From Terriglobia bacterium (GTDB lineage: Bacteria > Acidobacteriota > Terriglobia > Terriglobales > Acidobacteriaceae), in assembly GCA_020073165.1 (NCBI GenBank), contig JAIQFP010000017.1, positions 1 to 64,000 on the forward strand: a stretch of 64,000 bases of DNA, written 5' to 3'. Shown here in pieces: positions 53,180 to 59,045 of the stretch (positions are counted from its first letter, which is position 1; every line of letters begins with the position of its first letter). The notes beneath the pieces were generated by a model, which saw nothing but the letters and a program-made list of their open reading frames with translations, searched no databases and had not been told where the DNA came from. Made by a program: the position numbers and the translations under genes.

Positions 53180-54880
53180 TCAATTCTTTTGATGTTCGTA
53201 AAGCTCCCGCGCCCTCTCGATCGTATCGGCGTCTTCCGGCAGTTTGTCGGTACGTATCCGCACAATCCGCGGGAAGCGCAGCGCGAAGCCGCTCTCGTGC
53301 CGGTCGGACCGCATCATGTTGTTGAAGGCCACTTCCAGCACGATCTTCGGCTCGACGATCAGGCGGAAGCCCTGGTCTTCTACGGTGTGCTCCAGGAACC
53401 ACTTGCTCATCTCCGCGATCTCGGCATCGGTGAGGCCAGAGTAAGCCTTGCCGATGTTCACCAGGCGATCGCCGTCCCAGACCGCGAACGTGTAGTCGCT
53501 GAGCACTCCGATGCGCTTCCCGTGACCGTACTCAACCGCCTTCACGACTACGTCGAGTGTGGCCAGTTCGCGCTTCAGCTTCAGCCAGGATTTGCCGCGC
53601 TTGCCGGGAGTGTAGGCCGACTCGGGATCTTTGATCATCAAGCCCTCATTGCCGCGGGCCTGCGCGGCTTCGAAAAGTTGATCGAGCTCTTCAGGTGATG
53701 CGGCTTGAAATACAGGCGCACGGATCACCAGCGCTGGCGCAGTTTGCTCCTCGGAGTCGAATGTCAGCCGGCCTTGTGCGCCTGGGGGCCGCACTTTCAC
53801 GGCCTTTCTCGGCCCTGACAGTAACTCATCGAGAATCTTTCCCCGCTCGCGCAGCGGACGGTCAATCAGCAGGTCGCCTCCGGCGTAGAGCAGGTCGAAC
53901 ACCAGATAGGCCACAGGTACCCGCCGGATCATCTCGTCACTGACCTTCTTGCGCCCTAATCGCTGCTGCAGGGCACTGAAGGGAACCGCTCTCCCGGTTT
54001 CGCCGGCCAGGTAGCTCCAGGCCACAATCTCGCCGTCGAGGATGGCGTCCTGCGGCAGTCCGGCCAGCGCGTCGGGCAATTCGGGGAAGGATTCGGTGAT
54101 CTCGTCGCGGGTGCGAGAAAAAATCCGCACCTCGCCACCGGCAAAATGCGCCTGGGCGCGGATGCCGTCGTACTTGTCCTCGACCGCAGCGTTCTCGAAA
54201 TAGCTGAGGGCCTCTTCGGCGGACTCCGCCGGGCTGGCCAGCATGAAGCCCAAGGGGTGGAACAACCGCATCTGCGCCTGCGCCAGCCGGCCATCAGCAG
54301 CGAGTTTGAGCGTCTCGCCGATATCGCCCAGCAGCATATTGGCACGCTGCACTTCAGTCAGAGTCCCGCTGTAGGCCTTCGCGATGGCCTCTTCGACCAG
54401 GCTCTCCTTCAAGCCGATGCGCAGGTCTCCCGTCATGGTCTTGATGATGTACTTGGCCTCAAGCGGCGTGACTTGCGAGAGCAGATCACGAACCAGCGCA
54501 CCCTTGGCGGCTGGGCCCCGAGCGGCTGCAATCTGCCGGAATTTCTCCTGCACTTCGGTCGCGCCCAGTTCTGAGCCACCGGATCGCGCAGGCAGCACCT
54601 CTGCGGCGACCGCCCCCAAATCTCCGTGGCGGCGGTAGGCCGCGGTGAGTTCATGCTCGGTTTTTCCGGAAAGCTCCGAGACCGTTCGCCACAGGAGCGC
54701 TCCACCAACCTGGAGGGTGGTTTCCTCCCACACAGGGAAAGGCCGGCCGGAGAGGAACACGGCGGAGACAGCGGCATCCCCCGGCGTGCGTGACTTGAGG
54801 TAGTCGGCAACGACGGCGGTCTTCTCCAGCTTCTTGGTGGTGCCGGCGACGCGCTCGCAGGCTTCAGCTAGTTTTTCCAT
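53180..54880 (-). CDS. ATP-dependent DNA ligase
   Basis: A 566-residue ligase of the archaeal/eukaryotic ATP-dependent type, which seals nicks with a covalent lysyl-AMP. The N-terminal DNA-binding domain (about 1-215) precedes motif I EDKYDGIRAQ with catalytic K236, the nucleotidyltransferase motifs ILDGEIVAW and YLVFDLLYAGG, the LMIKDPESAY region and an OB domain at the C-terminus. Bacterial replication uses NAD-dependent LigA, so this is probably a repair ligase. No Ku or polymerase domain is adjacent. Confidence 0.93.
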   Translation of the reverse strand: MEKLAEACERVAGTTKKLEKTAVVADYLKSRTPGDAAVSAVFLSGRPFPVWEETTLQVGGALLWRTVSELSGKTEHELTAAYRRHGDLGAVAAEVLPARSGGSELGATEVQEKFRQIAAARGPAAKGALVRDLLSQVTPLEAKYIIKTMTGDLRIGLKESLVEEAIAKAYSGTLTEVQRANMLLGDIGETLKLAADGRLAQAQMRLFHPLGFMLASPAESAEEALSYFENAAVEDKYDGIRAQAHFAGGEVRIFSRTRDEITESFPELPDALAGLPQDAILDGEIVAWSYLAGETGRAVPFSALQQRLGRKKVSDEMIRRVPVAYLVFDLLYAGGDLLIDRPLRERGKILDELLSGPRKAVKVRPPGAQGRLTFDSEEQTAPALVIRAPVFQAASPEELDQLFEAAQARGNEGLMIKDPESAYTPGKRGKSWLKLKRELATLDVVVKAVEYGHGKRIGVLSDYTFAVWDGDRLVNIGKAYSGLTDAEIAEMSKWFLEHTVEDQGFRLIVEPKIVLEVAFNNMMRSDRHESGFALRFPRIVRIRTDKLPEDADTIERARELYEHQKN

Positions 54881-54968
54881 GAATCGCTACTCGGCAACCT
54901 CAAGAAACAGGGCTACTTACACCCCGCCTCTGCCATCCTAAATGAACCCGGACCTGTGATACCCTTAC

Positions 54969-55994
54969 ATGTTGGTACGTCGGTCCCGGAAAGATCATCC
55001 AATCAATATGCGATTCCTGCGAACATGGCTGCGCTTCCTCGCTGCGGTACAGCTCCTGCCCGCCTTGGAGGGCGGCGAGGAGACCCTGGTCGGCGGGCAA
55101 GCCGTGCTCGAGGGCGTCATGATGCGCTCCCCGCACGCCTGGGCGATCGCCTGCCGCAAGCCAACCGGAGAGTTATCCACGCACAGCGAGCCCCTGGAGC
55201 GGCCTTCCGACAAGCATAAATGGATGGCCTGGCCGGTGGTGCGCGGCGTCATCACTCTCGGCCACGCCATGGGTCTGGGGTTCAAGGCCCTGCGATTTTC
55301 GGCGAACGTTGCGCTGGATGAGATTCCGGCGAACGACAAAGGCAAGAAGCTGGAAGTGAGTGGGTGGGTGGCTGCGGTGAACGTCATTTTTTCGCTCGGC
55401 TTTTTCATCTTTATGTATAAGTACCTGCCGCTGGTGGCGGCGACCGAACTTAAGCGGGTGAACCCCCTGTTTGGCGAGCAGATCATCTTCAACCTGGTGG
55501 ATGGCCTCATCCGCATCGCCCTGTTCCTGCTGTTTATCTGGGGGATTTCGCTGTGGCGTGACATTCGCCGCGTGTACGAGTACCACGGCGCCGAGCACAA
55601 GACGGTATATGCGTTTGAAAACGGTGATCCGCTGGAGACCAGCGCGGTACAGAAGTACTCCACCTTCCATCCGCGCTGCGGCACCAGTTTCCTGATGACG
55701 GTGATGATCATCTCGATCCTGGTGTACATGGCGATCCCGGTGACCACGTTCTGGGCGCGGTTTGCGATTCGCATCGCGCTACTGCCGGTGATTGCGGGAG
55801 TGTCGTACGAGATCATTCGCTTCGCCGCCAAGCACCGCGGATCGCTGTTCGCTATGATGACCGCTCCCGGACTGTGGCTGCAGCGCATTACCACTCAGCC
55901 TCCCTCGGACGACCAGGCCGAGTGCGCGATAGTGGCGCTGGACCAGGCCATGGTGCTGGAGAAACAGCACGGTGGCGAACTGGTCATTGCCTAG
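54969..55994 (+). CDS. DUF1385 membrane protein
   Basis: A 341-residue protein of the DUF1385 family, found next to prfA/prmC/rpmE in many phyla. Signature segments are LVGGQAVLEGVMMRSPHAWA near the N-terminus, YHGAEHKTVYAFENGDPL and HPRCGTSFLM. Four or more TM segments lie in residues 130-280. The function is unknown. The start at 54969 is only six bases after TGATAC, suggesting a leaderless transcript; an internal ATG at 55008 is an alternative. It is directly followed by the S23 cassette and then prfA. Confidence 0.85.
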   Translation: MLVRRSRKDHPINMRFLRTWLRFLAAVQLLPALEGGEETLVGGQAVLEGVMMRSPHAWAIACRKPTGELSTHSEPLERPSDKHKWMAWPVVRGVITLGHAMGLGFKALRFSANVALDEIPANDKGKKLEVSGWVAAVNVIFSLGFFIFMYKYLPLVAATELKRVNPLFGEQIIFNLVDGLIRIALFLLFIWGISLWRDIRRVYEYHGAEHKTVYAFENGDPLETSAVQKYSTFHPRCGTSFLMTVMIISILVYMAIPVTTFWARFAIRIALLPVIAGVSYEIIRFAAKHRGSLFAMMTAPGLWLQRITTQPPSDDQAECAIVALDQAMVLEKQHGGELVIA

Positions 55995-55999
55995 CACCC

Positions 56000-56520
56000 G
56001 TCGCTGGTCGTTTGTCGTTCGTCGTTGGCTGACACCTCCTTAGCCCAGGTCATCCATCACATACAGGTAACCAGCGACACGCTAGAAGTCATGATGGAGG
56101 TTTTCACATGCCATCATCATTTAGGGATTTGCGGGTTTGGCAGGAAGCTATGAAACTGGCTTCAGAAATCTATCGGACAACAGCGGCCTTTCCGAGGCAC
56201 GAGTTGTACGGCCTGAGTCAACAGATGCGGCGGGCAGTGGTTTCGGTGCCCAGCAACATAGCGGAGGGGAAGGGGCATCGCTCCAATCGCGAGTTCACAC
56301 ACTTTCTGCTTCATGCCAGAGGCTCGCTCCTTGAACTACAGACTCAGATGCTCATCGCAGAGGATTTACAATACCTCTCGAAAGAGAGGATGCAGAAATT
56401 AGGCGAGCAAGCCGACCGCATCGCCCGCGGCCTGAACGGCCTCATCAACTCAATTGGTGAGAAAGCCGCTTGATTGTGGTGGGCAAAGGCACGAACAACA
56501 AACGACCAACGACCAACGAC
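56000..56520. mobile_element. Putative S23 cassette bounded by inverted heptad arrays (sites 6 and 7)
   Basis: Left array: GTCGCTG, GTCGTTT, GTCGTTC, GTCGTTG (56000-56027). Right array: GAACAAC, AAACGAC, CAACGAC, CAACGAC (56493-56520), exactly four units and the complement of the left consensus GTCGTTN. The only gene between is an S23 four-helix-bundle gene. The cassette separates DUF1385 from prfA. Movement is inferred from symmetry; target-site duplication is not apparent. Confidence 0.45.
56108..56473 (+). CDS. S23-type four-helix-bundle protein
   Basis: A 121-residue protein of the four-helix-bundle family related to the 23S rRNA intervening-sequence ORF and to the Avd accessory protein of diversity-generating retroelements. 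Family hallmarks: FRDLRVWQEAMKLASEIYRTT, LSQQMRRAVVSVPSNIAEG, SNREFTHFLLHARGSLLELQTQ, ending RIARGLNGLINSI. A good Shine-Dalgarno GGAGG is seven bases before the ATG. No reverse transcriptase or variable repeats are nearby. It is enclosed by inverted heptad arrays. Confidence 0.9.
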   Translation: MPSSFRDLRVWQEAMKLASEIYRTTAAFPRHELYGLSQQMRRAVVSVPSNIAEGKGHRSNREFTHFLLHARGSLLELQTQMLIAEDLQYLSKERMQKLGEQADRIARGLNGLINSIGEKAA

Positions 56521-56527
56521 GGATCTC

Positions 56528-57607
56528 ATGTTTGAACGTTTAAACCAACTTGAAGCCCGCTACGACGAACTGACGCAGGCCCTTGCCTCGCCCGACATCA
56601 TGAATGACTCGGGCCGATACCAGAAGACTGCCAAGGCGCACAGCGAAATCGCCCCCGCGGTCGAGAAATATCGCGAGTACAAGGACCTGAAGCAGGGGAT
56701 CGCCGAGAGCCGGGCGGTGCTTGCCGACGAGAAAGATCCCGACATGCGCGCCTACGCGCAGGAAGAACTCGACAAGCTCGAAGCCCGCGTGGCCACCGTG
56801 GAAGAAGAACTGAAGGTGCTGCTGTTGCCCAAGGATCCCAACGACGAAAAGGATGTGATCCTGGAAATCCGCGCCGGCACCGGGGGAGACGAGGCCACGC
56901 TATTCGCTGCGGAAATGTTCCGCATGTATACCCGTTACGCGGAAACCCAGCGCTGGAAGGTCGAGGTGCTTTCGACTTCCGAGTCTTCGGTTGGCGGTTT
57001 GAAAGAAGTAATCGCGATGATTCAAGGGCAACGCGTCTACTCCCGCATGAAATATGAAAGCGGAGTCCATCGCGTGCAGCGGGTGCCGGCTACCGAGCAG
57101 CAGGGACGTGTGCATACGTCGGCGGTCACTGTCGCCGTGCTGCCCGAAGCCGAAGAAGTGGACGTGAAGATCGAAGCCAAAGATCTGCGCATAGATACCT
57201 TCTGCTCCTCGGGCCCCGGCGGTCAGTCGGTGAACACGACCTACTCAGCGGTGCGTATTACCCACATTCCGACCAATACCGTGGTGAGCTGCCAGGACGA
57301 GAAATCGCAGATCAAGAATCGCGAAAAGGGCATGCGCGTCCTGCGTTCCCGCCTCTACGAGATGGAGATGCAGAAACAGCAGGAAGCGCTGGCGAAAGAA
57401 CGTAAGACCATGGTGGGCTCCGGCGACCGCAGCGAGAAGATCCGCACCTACAATTTCCCGCAAAACCGGGTCACCGACCACCGCATTGGCCTGACCATTC
57501 ACCAGTTGCAGGAGGTAATGGACGGCAAACTCGGGCCACTGCTCGAGGCCCTGGTCACCCACTACCAGGCCGAGAAGCTGAAACAGGAAACGGCCAGCGT
57601 GGGATAA
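56528..57607 (+). CDS. prfA: Peptide chain release factor 1
   Basis: A 359-residue RF1 that reads UAA/UAG stop codons. It starts [19 protein letters not shown], carries the recognition motif PAT ([14 protein letters not shown]), and the GGQ motif in [13 protein letters not shown] (about residue 236). The ATG is seven bases after the right heptad array, leaving no clear Shine-Dalgarno, so the array may influence translation start. An in-frame 18-codon extension upstream is encoded by the repeat and is not conserved-looking. Confidence 0.96.
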
Positions 57608-57657
57608 GGAGAGTCTTGCGTTCAGACTTCCCCGTGTCTCTGTGGTGAAATAGTCTG

Positions 57658-58497
57658 GTGCTCCTCCGCGATGTCCTCAATTCCGCCATTGACCGCCTGA
57701 CTACCGCTCACGTCGGCTCGCCGCGGATGAATGCCGAGGTGCTGCTCATGTTCGTGCTCGGCTGCGATCGAGCCTTCCTTTACGCCCATCCCGAGCGACA
57801 GCTCACCCTCGAGGAAAACGCCGGGTATGACGAAGCACTGGAGCAGCGTGCCCGGGGCGTGCCATCGCAGTACATCGTCGGACACCAGGAATTTTGGGGG
57901 ATGGACTTCATCGTGACGCCGGCAGTCCTCATCCCGCGTCCGGAGACCGAGCACGTCATCGAAACCGTGTTGCCGTTGGTGCAGGGGCTGGGCAAGCCCA
58001 AAATTGCGGACGTCGGCACCGGGTCAGGTTGCATCGCCATCGTCCTCGCCAGCGAACTGCCACAGGCAGAAATTCACGCTACCGAGATTTCCCCCGAAGC
58101 CCTCGAAATCACCCGCGCCAATGCCGCTCGGCACCAGCTTGAACACCGGATCCATTTCCACCACACTGACTTGTTGCAAGGACTCGAATCCGGAGACTTT
58201 GATTTTGTCGTTTCCAACCCTCCCTACGTGGGCGAATCTGAAGAGGACCAGGTTCAGCTCGAAGTGCGCAAGTTTGAGCCGCGTAGCGCGGTATTCGCGG
58301 GGCCTAGTGGACTGGAAGTGATTAAGCGCTTGATTCCACAGGCACAGCGCGCGCTCAAGTCCGGCGGATGCCTGGTCATGGAAATCAGCGGGACGATCGC
58401 GCCGGAAGTGCAGCGGTTATTAAGCGGCTGGAAGGATGCGCGGATTACGGATGATTTGCAGGGCATCCCTCGCGTGGCTTCCGCGCGCAAGCCCTGA
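57658..58497 (+). CDS. prmC: Release factor glutamine methyltransferase PrmC
   Basis: A 279-residue enzyme that methylates the glutamine of the GGQ motif in release factors. It has the N-terminal helical domain, the SAM motif IADVGTGSGCIAIVLASELP, and the catalytic NPPY in VVSNPPYVGESEED. The start is GTG 57658. It follows prfA, the usual partner, with 50 bp between that contain a TCTCTGTGGTGAAATAG sequence seen elsewhere as a repeat, and TAGTCT just before the GTG. Confidence 0.95.
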   Translation: MLLRDVLNSAIDRLTTAHVGSPRMNAEVLLMFVLGCDRAFLYAHPERQLTLEENAGYDEALEQRARGVPSQYIVGHQEFWGMDFIVTPAVLIPRPETEHVIETVLPLVQGLGKPKIADVGTGSGCIAIVLASELPQAEIHATEISPEALEITRANAARHQLEHRIHFHHTDLLQGLESGDFDFVVSNPPYVGESEEDQVQLEVRKFEPRSAVFAGPSGLEVIKRLIPQAQRALKSGGCLVMEISGTIAPEVQRLLSGWKDARITDDLQGIPRVASARKP

Positions 58498-59045
58498 CCG
58501 GTGTCCAGTCGCGCGTGACATGCACCATGCCAGCCAGAATGATTCCTTGCTTACCTCCTGCTCACCCACTGGTTCTCACGCCCAGCGTCTGCCTATGAAA
58601 AACCTTGCACAACTAGCGCATGTAGTACTGGCGAAGGTTTTGTCAAAAGGAAACGTTCGGCTCTAGAAATTGCTGCTGCCCTGGACTACAATCCTCCGCG
58701 ATTTGCGACCAGACTTGGGGACAGTTTATCTCTCCTGGCGACAGACACCCTCCGGCGCAGCCTGGTCGAAGGACCGCCGTCAGGTTCGCGACCTCAGATC
58801 CGGTAAGGCACCCGCACCAACCGGCAAGAGCCCCGGCATCCCGGCCAAGCAAAACGTAGTCGAAACAGAAGGCCGGCCGTTGCGGCTGGGCATTCACATG
58901 GACCTGAAAAACCGGCGCTGTATTGTTAGGAAAGAGTGTTGCCCGGCCGTCTTGCACTAGGCGAACTGCAGTCAGGAGCGGGGAAATGCACAAGAGGCCG
59001 TATTCCAGTCCGCCGTTCGAAGAATGAACTATACGAGGAGAAGAC
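58498..59045. other. Long non-coding region upstream of the kelch gene
   Basis: About 550 bp with no convincing gene. TACAAT at 58687-58692 is a plausible -10, giving a leader of about 350 nt before ATG 59046, with GC-rich inverted segments around 58790-58880. I recognise no riboswitch class. A normal Shine-Dalgarno (CGAGGAG) precedes the ATG, unlike many genes here. Confidence 0.35.

Follow-up and report, generated by a model that had tools for sequence, protein, structure and literature searches.

The window analyzed here is a stretch of 64,000 nucleotides from a Terriglobia bacterium of the family Acidobacteriaceae. Within the window, a gene for an S23 (23S_rRNA_IVP) protein of 121 amino acids (56108..56473, plus strand) is located between a DUF1385 gene (54969..55994, plus strand) and prfA, which encodes peptide chain release factor 1 (56528..57607, plus strand). 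Two tandem arrays of a 7-nt unit surround the S23 gene in inverted orientation. The left array (56000..56027, minus strand) starts after a gap of 5 bp behind the DUF1385 stop and consists of GTCGCTG, GTCGTTT, GTCGTTC and GTCGTTG, corresponding to the consensus GTCGTTN or, on the minus strand, NAACGAC. The right array (56493..56520, plus strand) consists of the NAACGAC units GAACAAC, AAACGAC, CAACGAC and CAACGAC. The first-pass annotation had described four units of one consensus on each side, which is correct, with one unit on each side carrying a mismatch. It had also placed the right array seven bases in front of the prfA ATG and named S23 as the sole enclosed gene. Both statements were borne out, as 7 bp separate the array end at 56520 from the prfA start at 56528 and no other gene was seen between the arrays. 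When positions 55990-56535 are folded in silico, the two arms are predicted to pair, with a z-score of -4.8 for the whole stretch. An Rfam search of positions 54500-58500 returned nothing above the gathering score, and further NAACGAC arrays above threshold were absent from the rest of the window and from the reversed window.

Profile searches assign the enclosed protein to the S23 family (PF05635, E=3.4e-39, 133.8 bits with a cut-off of 33.8; TIGR02436, 126.5 bits with a cut-off of 24), and AF2 predicts a four-helix bundle for it (pLDDT 94.2). The nearest solved relatives of the model are XCC0516 (2gsc, E 4e-8, TM 0.86) and BT_0352 (2rld). DGR Avd structures (4dwl, 8ub7 and 8ub8) are more distant matches with TM-scores of about 0.8. 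Although the protein resembles DGR Avd and bAvd in its fold and by a weak sequence match, it stays below the curated cut-offs of the bAvd and DivGenRetAVD models (PF22296, 27.6 bits with a cut-off of 40; NF033474, 27.9 bits with a cut-off of 80), and no reverse transcriptase is found among its direct neighbors, DUF1385 and prfA. S23/IVP proteins are common and structures have been solved; no function is assigned to them in the literature searched, and we know of no catalytic motif in S23. Judging from the substitutions between the prfA-linked genes of the window's own genome (G000) and of a genome of the same genus (G049), the window S23 is under purifying selection (dN 0.046, dS 0.33, dN/dS 0.14). 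For the solved relative 2gsc, a homopentamer built from four-helix bundles has been described (PMC4990558).

S23 matches were found in 87 of 120 genomes belonging to the GTDB family of the window, with up to 11 per genome. From these, 102 different S23 genes were collected, a set that leans to high-scoring matches (the best per genome, then genes hand-picked from the listed matches), and two without 200 bp of flank were dropped. In the remaining 100 loci, the left 300 bp were compared with the reverse complement of the right 300 bp. At a threshold score of 14, inverted matching flanks were detected at 78 of the 100 genes, mostly as arrays in which a single unit of about 7 nt, specific to the locus, is repeated, and 22 loci stayed below this score. 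Controls reached the same threshold in 1 of 100 cases in direct orientation, in 14 of 600 cross-locus comparisons and in 3 of 137 ORFs from the same loci; these three ORFs, scoring 16 or more, harbor no heptads. The tandem score at lag 7 was 13.0/11.8 for S23 flanks versus 5.7/5.2 for controls; it was also raised at lags 14 and 21 and flat at other lags. A stricter test, demanding a period of 7, 8, 9 or 14 on both sides at a score of 11, was passed by 46 of 101 loci. Of the 79 loci above threshold, 69 have arms of about 3-5 units. Units vary from locus to locus (e.g. AGTTCTC, AGCAGTC, AGTACCC and GTCGTCA), periods of 6, 8 or 9 occur at a few loci, and a few others lack a clear tandem unit. Inverted matching flanks, mostly heptad arrays that share one unit left and right, were thus found at most S23 genes of related acidobacterial genomes, in agreement with the expectation. 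Simple repeats generated by ordinary slippage would lie beside S23 genes by accident, and related sequences indeed vary in array length by entire units (7 bp at one site of G000 and G049, 14 bp between the plasmid loci L218 and L331). However, this explanation is extremely improbable, as the inverted-flank controls and the comparison with Y1 transposase loci described below contradict it and the units are common to whole genomes. Two S23 ORFs, one of them with just 64 amino acids, were located upstream of the ETF-QO gene at one locus (L183 in G021), one with a 7-nt and the other with a 9-nt unit. Three further loci (L066, L076 and L169) show S23 with inverted flanks and hardly any tandem unit, and their ends are possibly not heptad arrays.

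The array unit was compared with the sequence of the enclosed protein. Protein identity and unit similarity are correlated among 79 S23 genes (Mantel r=0.333, p=0.0005), also when the prfA-linked copies are left out (n=70, r=0.303, p=0.0005). The unit is shared in 86% of the 7 cross-genome pairs with at least 70% S23 identity, compared with about 2% of pairs below 50%. Among the right arms of 12 prfA loci, the one belonging to the locus itself took first or second place at no more than 7 loci, with a mean arm match of 22.6 within loci versus 17.2 across loci. Genomes also contain many S23-less arrays of the unit of their resident S23, as observed for NAACGAC and AGTAC. NAACGAC matches number 31-161 in the 15 genomes with a located prfA-linked S23 and reach 31 in 10 of the other 105 genomes, some of which may also have a linked S23, as linkage was judged partly by coordinates among the matches listed. 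Two genomes, G100 (90% complete) and G037 (53%), have 25 and 18 NAACGAC matches, respectively, yet no S23 match. For AGTAC, a near-palindromic unit whose sites were partly counted on both strands, four genomes had been named beforehand from their S23 arrays, and these rank first (G075, 187 sites), second (G119, 148), fifth (G091, 58) and sixth (G001, 55) among the 120 genomes. G108 (100) and G029 (69) also rank high, and no AGTAC-type array was seen at the S23 loci read in these genomes (8 of 10 and 2 of 5, respectively). By the Mantel correlation, the unit tracks the S23 protein, as expected if S23 recognizes the array, and S23 presumably binds it.

In the window's own genome, AACGACNAACGACNAACGAC with up to 2 mismatches yielded 43+50 matches compared with 3+4 for the pattern read backwards, overlapping matches being included in such counts. 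The stretches around these matches harbor 39 array sites, commonly of three or four units, which comprise 17 inverted pairs (the window locus included) and 22 solo arrays. Hence the unit is not limited to the window site. Among the 39 sites, an S23 gene lies between NAACGAC arrays only at the window locus, and the two other S23 genes of this genome have other units. Simple chance is ruled out as the origin of the arrays by the reversed-pattern and control-ORF tests. When five hairpins chosen by hand were folded as RNA, they gave better folds than shuffled sequences (z -3.6 to -9.8). In 16 hairpins the arms match each other no better than they match the arms of other hairpins (p=0.95), which indicates one family whose perfect pairing is not maintained; stem maintenance therefore finds no support. 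The hairpin cores are mostly unrelated, with one related-looking pair (L044/L051) among 13 compared, which rules out that they are copies of one transposon core. Two NAACGAC sites are comparable between G000 and G049. Both are occupied in both genomes, one of them in a degenerate form in G049, so that these sites give no sign of array movement between the two. A TGACGAC hairpin of G049 is represented in G000 by a one-arm stub, and a search with L047 in G049 gave a 68% match over 649 bp plus short repeats and nothing more. A dispersed repeat of about 45 bp in G049 (L126, 1171-1217), with matches of 83-94% at several sites of the window's genome, belongs to another repeat family.

Dispersed inverted repeats tied to a gene are known from the RAYT/REPIN system, which is similar in that inverted doublets form hairpins and the repeat type follows the lineage (PMC3116915, as far as described there). 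The 17 inverted pairs among the 39 sites examined correspond to such doublets. In contrast to RAYTs, S23 is not a Y1/HUH transposase, no Y1 gene was seen inside the window element, and the ends of S23 elements are tandem heptads instead of REP palindromes. Nevertheless, S23 might be a mere passenger, and a Y1 transposase of the RAYT/TIRYT type or some other enzyme acting in trans might move the arrays. Y1_Tnp matches are present in 106 of the 120 family genomes, the window's own genome having 6, and Koribacter has been described as carrying Y1 genes flanked by TIRs (PMC3733652). However, none of 20 Y1 loci picked from the match list in 19 genomes (L299-L318) contains heptads, whereas 17 have another inverted repeat on both sides, mostly a REP sequence of the AGCCC.. 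type. Heptad arrays are thus ruled out as RAYT repeats for these 20 loci, and S23/heptad and Y1/REP look like parallel systems in one host family. Furthermore, the unit follows the S23 sequence, G106 (69% complete) has 81 array matches and no Y1 match, and a passenger would not be expected to be one and the same gene in several phyla. A passenger role of S23 is therefore quite unlikely.

The age of the chromosomal copies can be judged at two host sites. The first is prfA, for which 33 loci were considered (the 30 best prfA matches and L140, L145 and L174, added for their known S23), with the junction unscored in L113, L119 and L121. S23 is located behind DUF1385 in 12 of the 33 loci, and DUF1385 adjoins prfA without S23 in 18, of which 16 have a junction of 69-132 bp. 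Most S23-bearing loci have the right array a few bp before the prfA ATG, and solo arrays by the prfA start are kept in some S23-less loci (e.g. L101, L103, L104, L108 and L118). All 12 prfA-linked S23 proteins sampled fall in one clade (support 98/91), so that the window copy represents an old insertion with losses; as far as the tree tells, it is inherited vertically between DUF1385 and prfA, with losses, and a recent insertion at prfA is ruled out. The proposed insertion into a conserved DUF1385-prfA pair was thus not a recent event. At L105 and L117, S23-less AGTTCTC arrays occupy both edges of the DUF1385-prfA intergenic region, around a promoter-like TTACAAT/TTAGAAT.

The second site lies between the genes for ETF-alpha and ETF-QO, where 30 loci were examined. 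This junction holds 0-26 bp in seven loci and an intergenic stretch of 439-940 bp with S23 in six genomes (G049, G024, G010, G022, G003 and G027, the last with S23 in opposite orientation), and G018 has a truncated remnant. In G049 the stretch measures 472 bp, with an array directly after the stop TAG and an end just before the ATG, compared with 9 bp in G000, and the flanks of the two are 86-90% identical. The 9-bp spacer of G000 is similar to the first array unit and may represent a scar. Seven of eight ETF-site S23 proteins form one clade (support 97/86). As the prfA and ETF copies group by locus, most acidobacterial S23 copies look old.

Closely related sequences with and without the unit were found in Nostocales plasmids. 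For a first plasmid junction, six of ten records covering most of the flank were read. Tolypothrix PCC 7601, Nostoc carneum and N. linckia harbor empty alleles, in which AAAAAGTAA is followed by 13 bp and the ATG. Trichormus variabilis ATCC 29413 and Scytonema NIES-4073 harbor filled alleles with TAA (or GTAA) on both sides of the S23 element. The flanks of filled and empty alleles are 97.4-98.4% identical, and Nostoc C052 pE shows a truncated remnant at the junction that carries the S23 element in T. variabilis. A second backbone, present in nine Nostoc plasmid records, contains two junctions. Junction A is filled in three records, measures 3 bp in five and contains 199 bp of other sequence in one, and two of the filled alleles have TTCTA repeated, a duplication that is uncertain because TTCTA resembles the array unit. 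The inserts of two filled alleles are 99.5% identical with flanks of 91.7-92.5% identity, so that the insert seems to have been gained after the backbones diverged. Junction B contains a different S23 element, with ATG repeated on both sides, in one record and at most 4 bp in the other eight. These alleles suggest that the unit moves. Empty sites with clean junctions, which the first-pass annotation had named as support for mobility, thus exist in plasmids and at the ETF junction.

Nostocales plasmids also contain a non-coding satellite. When a short piece of array from the T. variabilis element was used as query, further plasmids were matched, including nine listed short matches without an annotated feature. 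Four of these loci were read. Three have similar arrays at the ends of an element that measures about 185 bp and has a conserved non-coding core, the fourth being a solo array. Satellite copies with heptad ends and an apparently structured core are located at L336 698-876, L337 698-881, L339 698-881, L326 1132-1317, L340 61-243 and L341 61-247. With partial matches included, a 203-bp satellite query matched 112 places in 47 plasmid records, and 29 records contain at least 80% of the query in one place. Conservation of the core distinguishes these satellites from the G000 hairpins with their mostly unrelated cores. An Rfam search with L336-L339 gave no match up to E=1, and compensating changes keep the pairing at 7 of 60 predicted pairs in an alignment of just six copies. 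In Nostoc N6 a 182-bp satellite copy, which has the same ends as the S23 element, interrupts an S23 gene found without this interruption in ATCC 53789 pNsp_a. In Calothrix NIES-22, a further copy has an ORF annotated as RarA on either side.

These observations bear on the possibility that S23 is a host post-transcriptional regulator, with the arrays as its sites in mRNA leaders and trailers, duplicated and kept for regulation without being mobile. Vertical inheritance of S23 at the prfA and ETF sites, purifying selection at prfA, the position of the right array shortly before the prfA ATG and the folding of the five hairpin transcripts would all agree with such a role. However, the filled and empty plasmid alleles and the nested insertion into the S23 gene of Nostoc N6 indicate movement; moreover, a genome may contain up to 11 S23 genes, those sampled differ in unit, and S23 also occurs in cas operons and on plasmids. 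Immobile regulatory sites are thus an unlikely explanation.

The architecture is not confined to the acidobacterial family. All 12 plasmid S23 loci read (from 30 records) have inverted matching flanks with scores of 14-31; nine are cyanobacterial, and the others are from Azospirillum, Gemmatirosa (with an 8-nt unit) and Riemerella, which adds three other phyla and one proteobacterium. The matching units on both sides predicted for S23 genes elsewhere were therefore also found here. A Phycisphaerae locus scores 31 and a Halomonas locus 14. In a scan of named genomes, which partly overlaps the family set and leaves L247 unscored, 20 of 28 scored loci reach 14, one of them (L250) not with heptads. 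Phage records gave no S23 match, and one scan of viral contigs gave none that was confirmed. Thus several phyla have S23-plus-array units, S23 lineages differ in their unit, and the elements typically measure about 420-650 bp.

Comparison of sequences establishes the architecture, the fact that it goes with S23 rather than with the neighboring genes or Y1, the correlation of unit and protein, the dispersed S23-less arrays and the plasmid alleles with and without the unit. On this basis, an S23 gene within inverted arrays of about 7 nt probably represents a widespread class of mobile element similar to RAYT/REPIN, in which S23 would read the arrays and of which the window locus is one copy. The compact element with heptad ends that had been suggested for the window locus is supported in its architecture and possible mobility by its recurrence (78/100 and 12/12) and by the empty plasmid sites, although the window copy itself is not recent; nothing points to the RNA-guided insertion suggested along with it. 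In the proposed mechanism, the S23 ring would read the array with one heptad per subunit, in which case 4-5 units would wrap one ring. No recombinase was seen inside the S23 element, and S23 may mark the element ends for a joining enzyme that would be supplied in trans. The S23-less hairpins would be non-autonomous dependants, as REPINs are of RAYTs. Insertion is mostly at stop/start junctions in the sites read, where it would do the least harm. If S23 reads tandem heptads, its function becomes testable at once, since each gene carries its own presumed target.

The closest described counterpart is the intervening sequence (IVS) of the Coxiella burnetii 23S rRNA gene, which contains an S23p ORF preceded by heptamers (GACAGAT) in tandem, has a terminal stem of 28 bp, and is called selfish with mobility proposed (PMC4990558). 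Both the IVS and the window element enclose one S23 ORF within terminal inverted repeats, and the 28-nt arms of the window correspond in length to the IVS stem. In contrast to the IVS, the window unit lies between the protein genes DUF1385 and prfA, outside a 16S or 23S rRNA gene, and its heptads form the ends on both sides and have dispersed S23-less copies. Intergenic 7-nt tandem arrays near starts and stops have also been reported in other bacteria. TAACTGA arrays are described in Beggiatoaceae (PMC4679880), and GGGAATC and GGGGA(C/T)T arrays in Xanthomonas and Nostoc, respectively, are found on the antisense strand near the start and on the sense strand near the stop, with an inverted pair pictured (PMC4692102). 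In the available text of these two papers, the heptamers are tied to no gene, in contrast to the arrays described here, and neither S23 nor 'four helix' occurs as a term. The solved S23 protein XCC0516 is from Xanthomonas campestris, in which GGGAATC arrays abound. In the literature covered, which includes few subscription papers and no preprints, no link of S23 to heptad arrays as element ends was found save the Coxiella heptamers.

A wider reading is more tentative, and we regard it as possible rather than probable. S23 proteins may be sequence-specific readers of heptads in tandem, with one heptad per ring subunit and an own heptad per lineage, and may define a recombinase-less mobile class from Acidobacteriota to Cyanobacteriota that inserts at stop/start junctions and has non-coding satellites whose core is structured. 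The Beggiatoaceae, Xanthomonas and Nostoc heptamers and the 23S rRNA IVS may all derive from this class. If S23 proteins do read heptads, rRNA intervening sequences, intergenic heptamers and S23 genes in cas operons would belong to one mobile class without a recognized transposase. With respect to cas loci, 18 23S_rRNA_IVP genes have been reported there as an associated function (PMC3936711). On plasmids of Pseudanabaena galeata (L213, 1992-2351) and Anabaena sp. 90 (L216, 1989-2357), S23 is located between cas6 and cas4 in type I-D CRISPR operons. Both genes have heptad arrays on both sides, so that some S23 genes in cas operons may be inserted elements and not cas genes.
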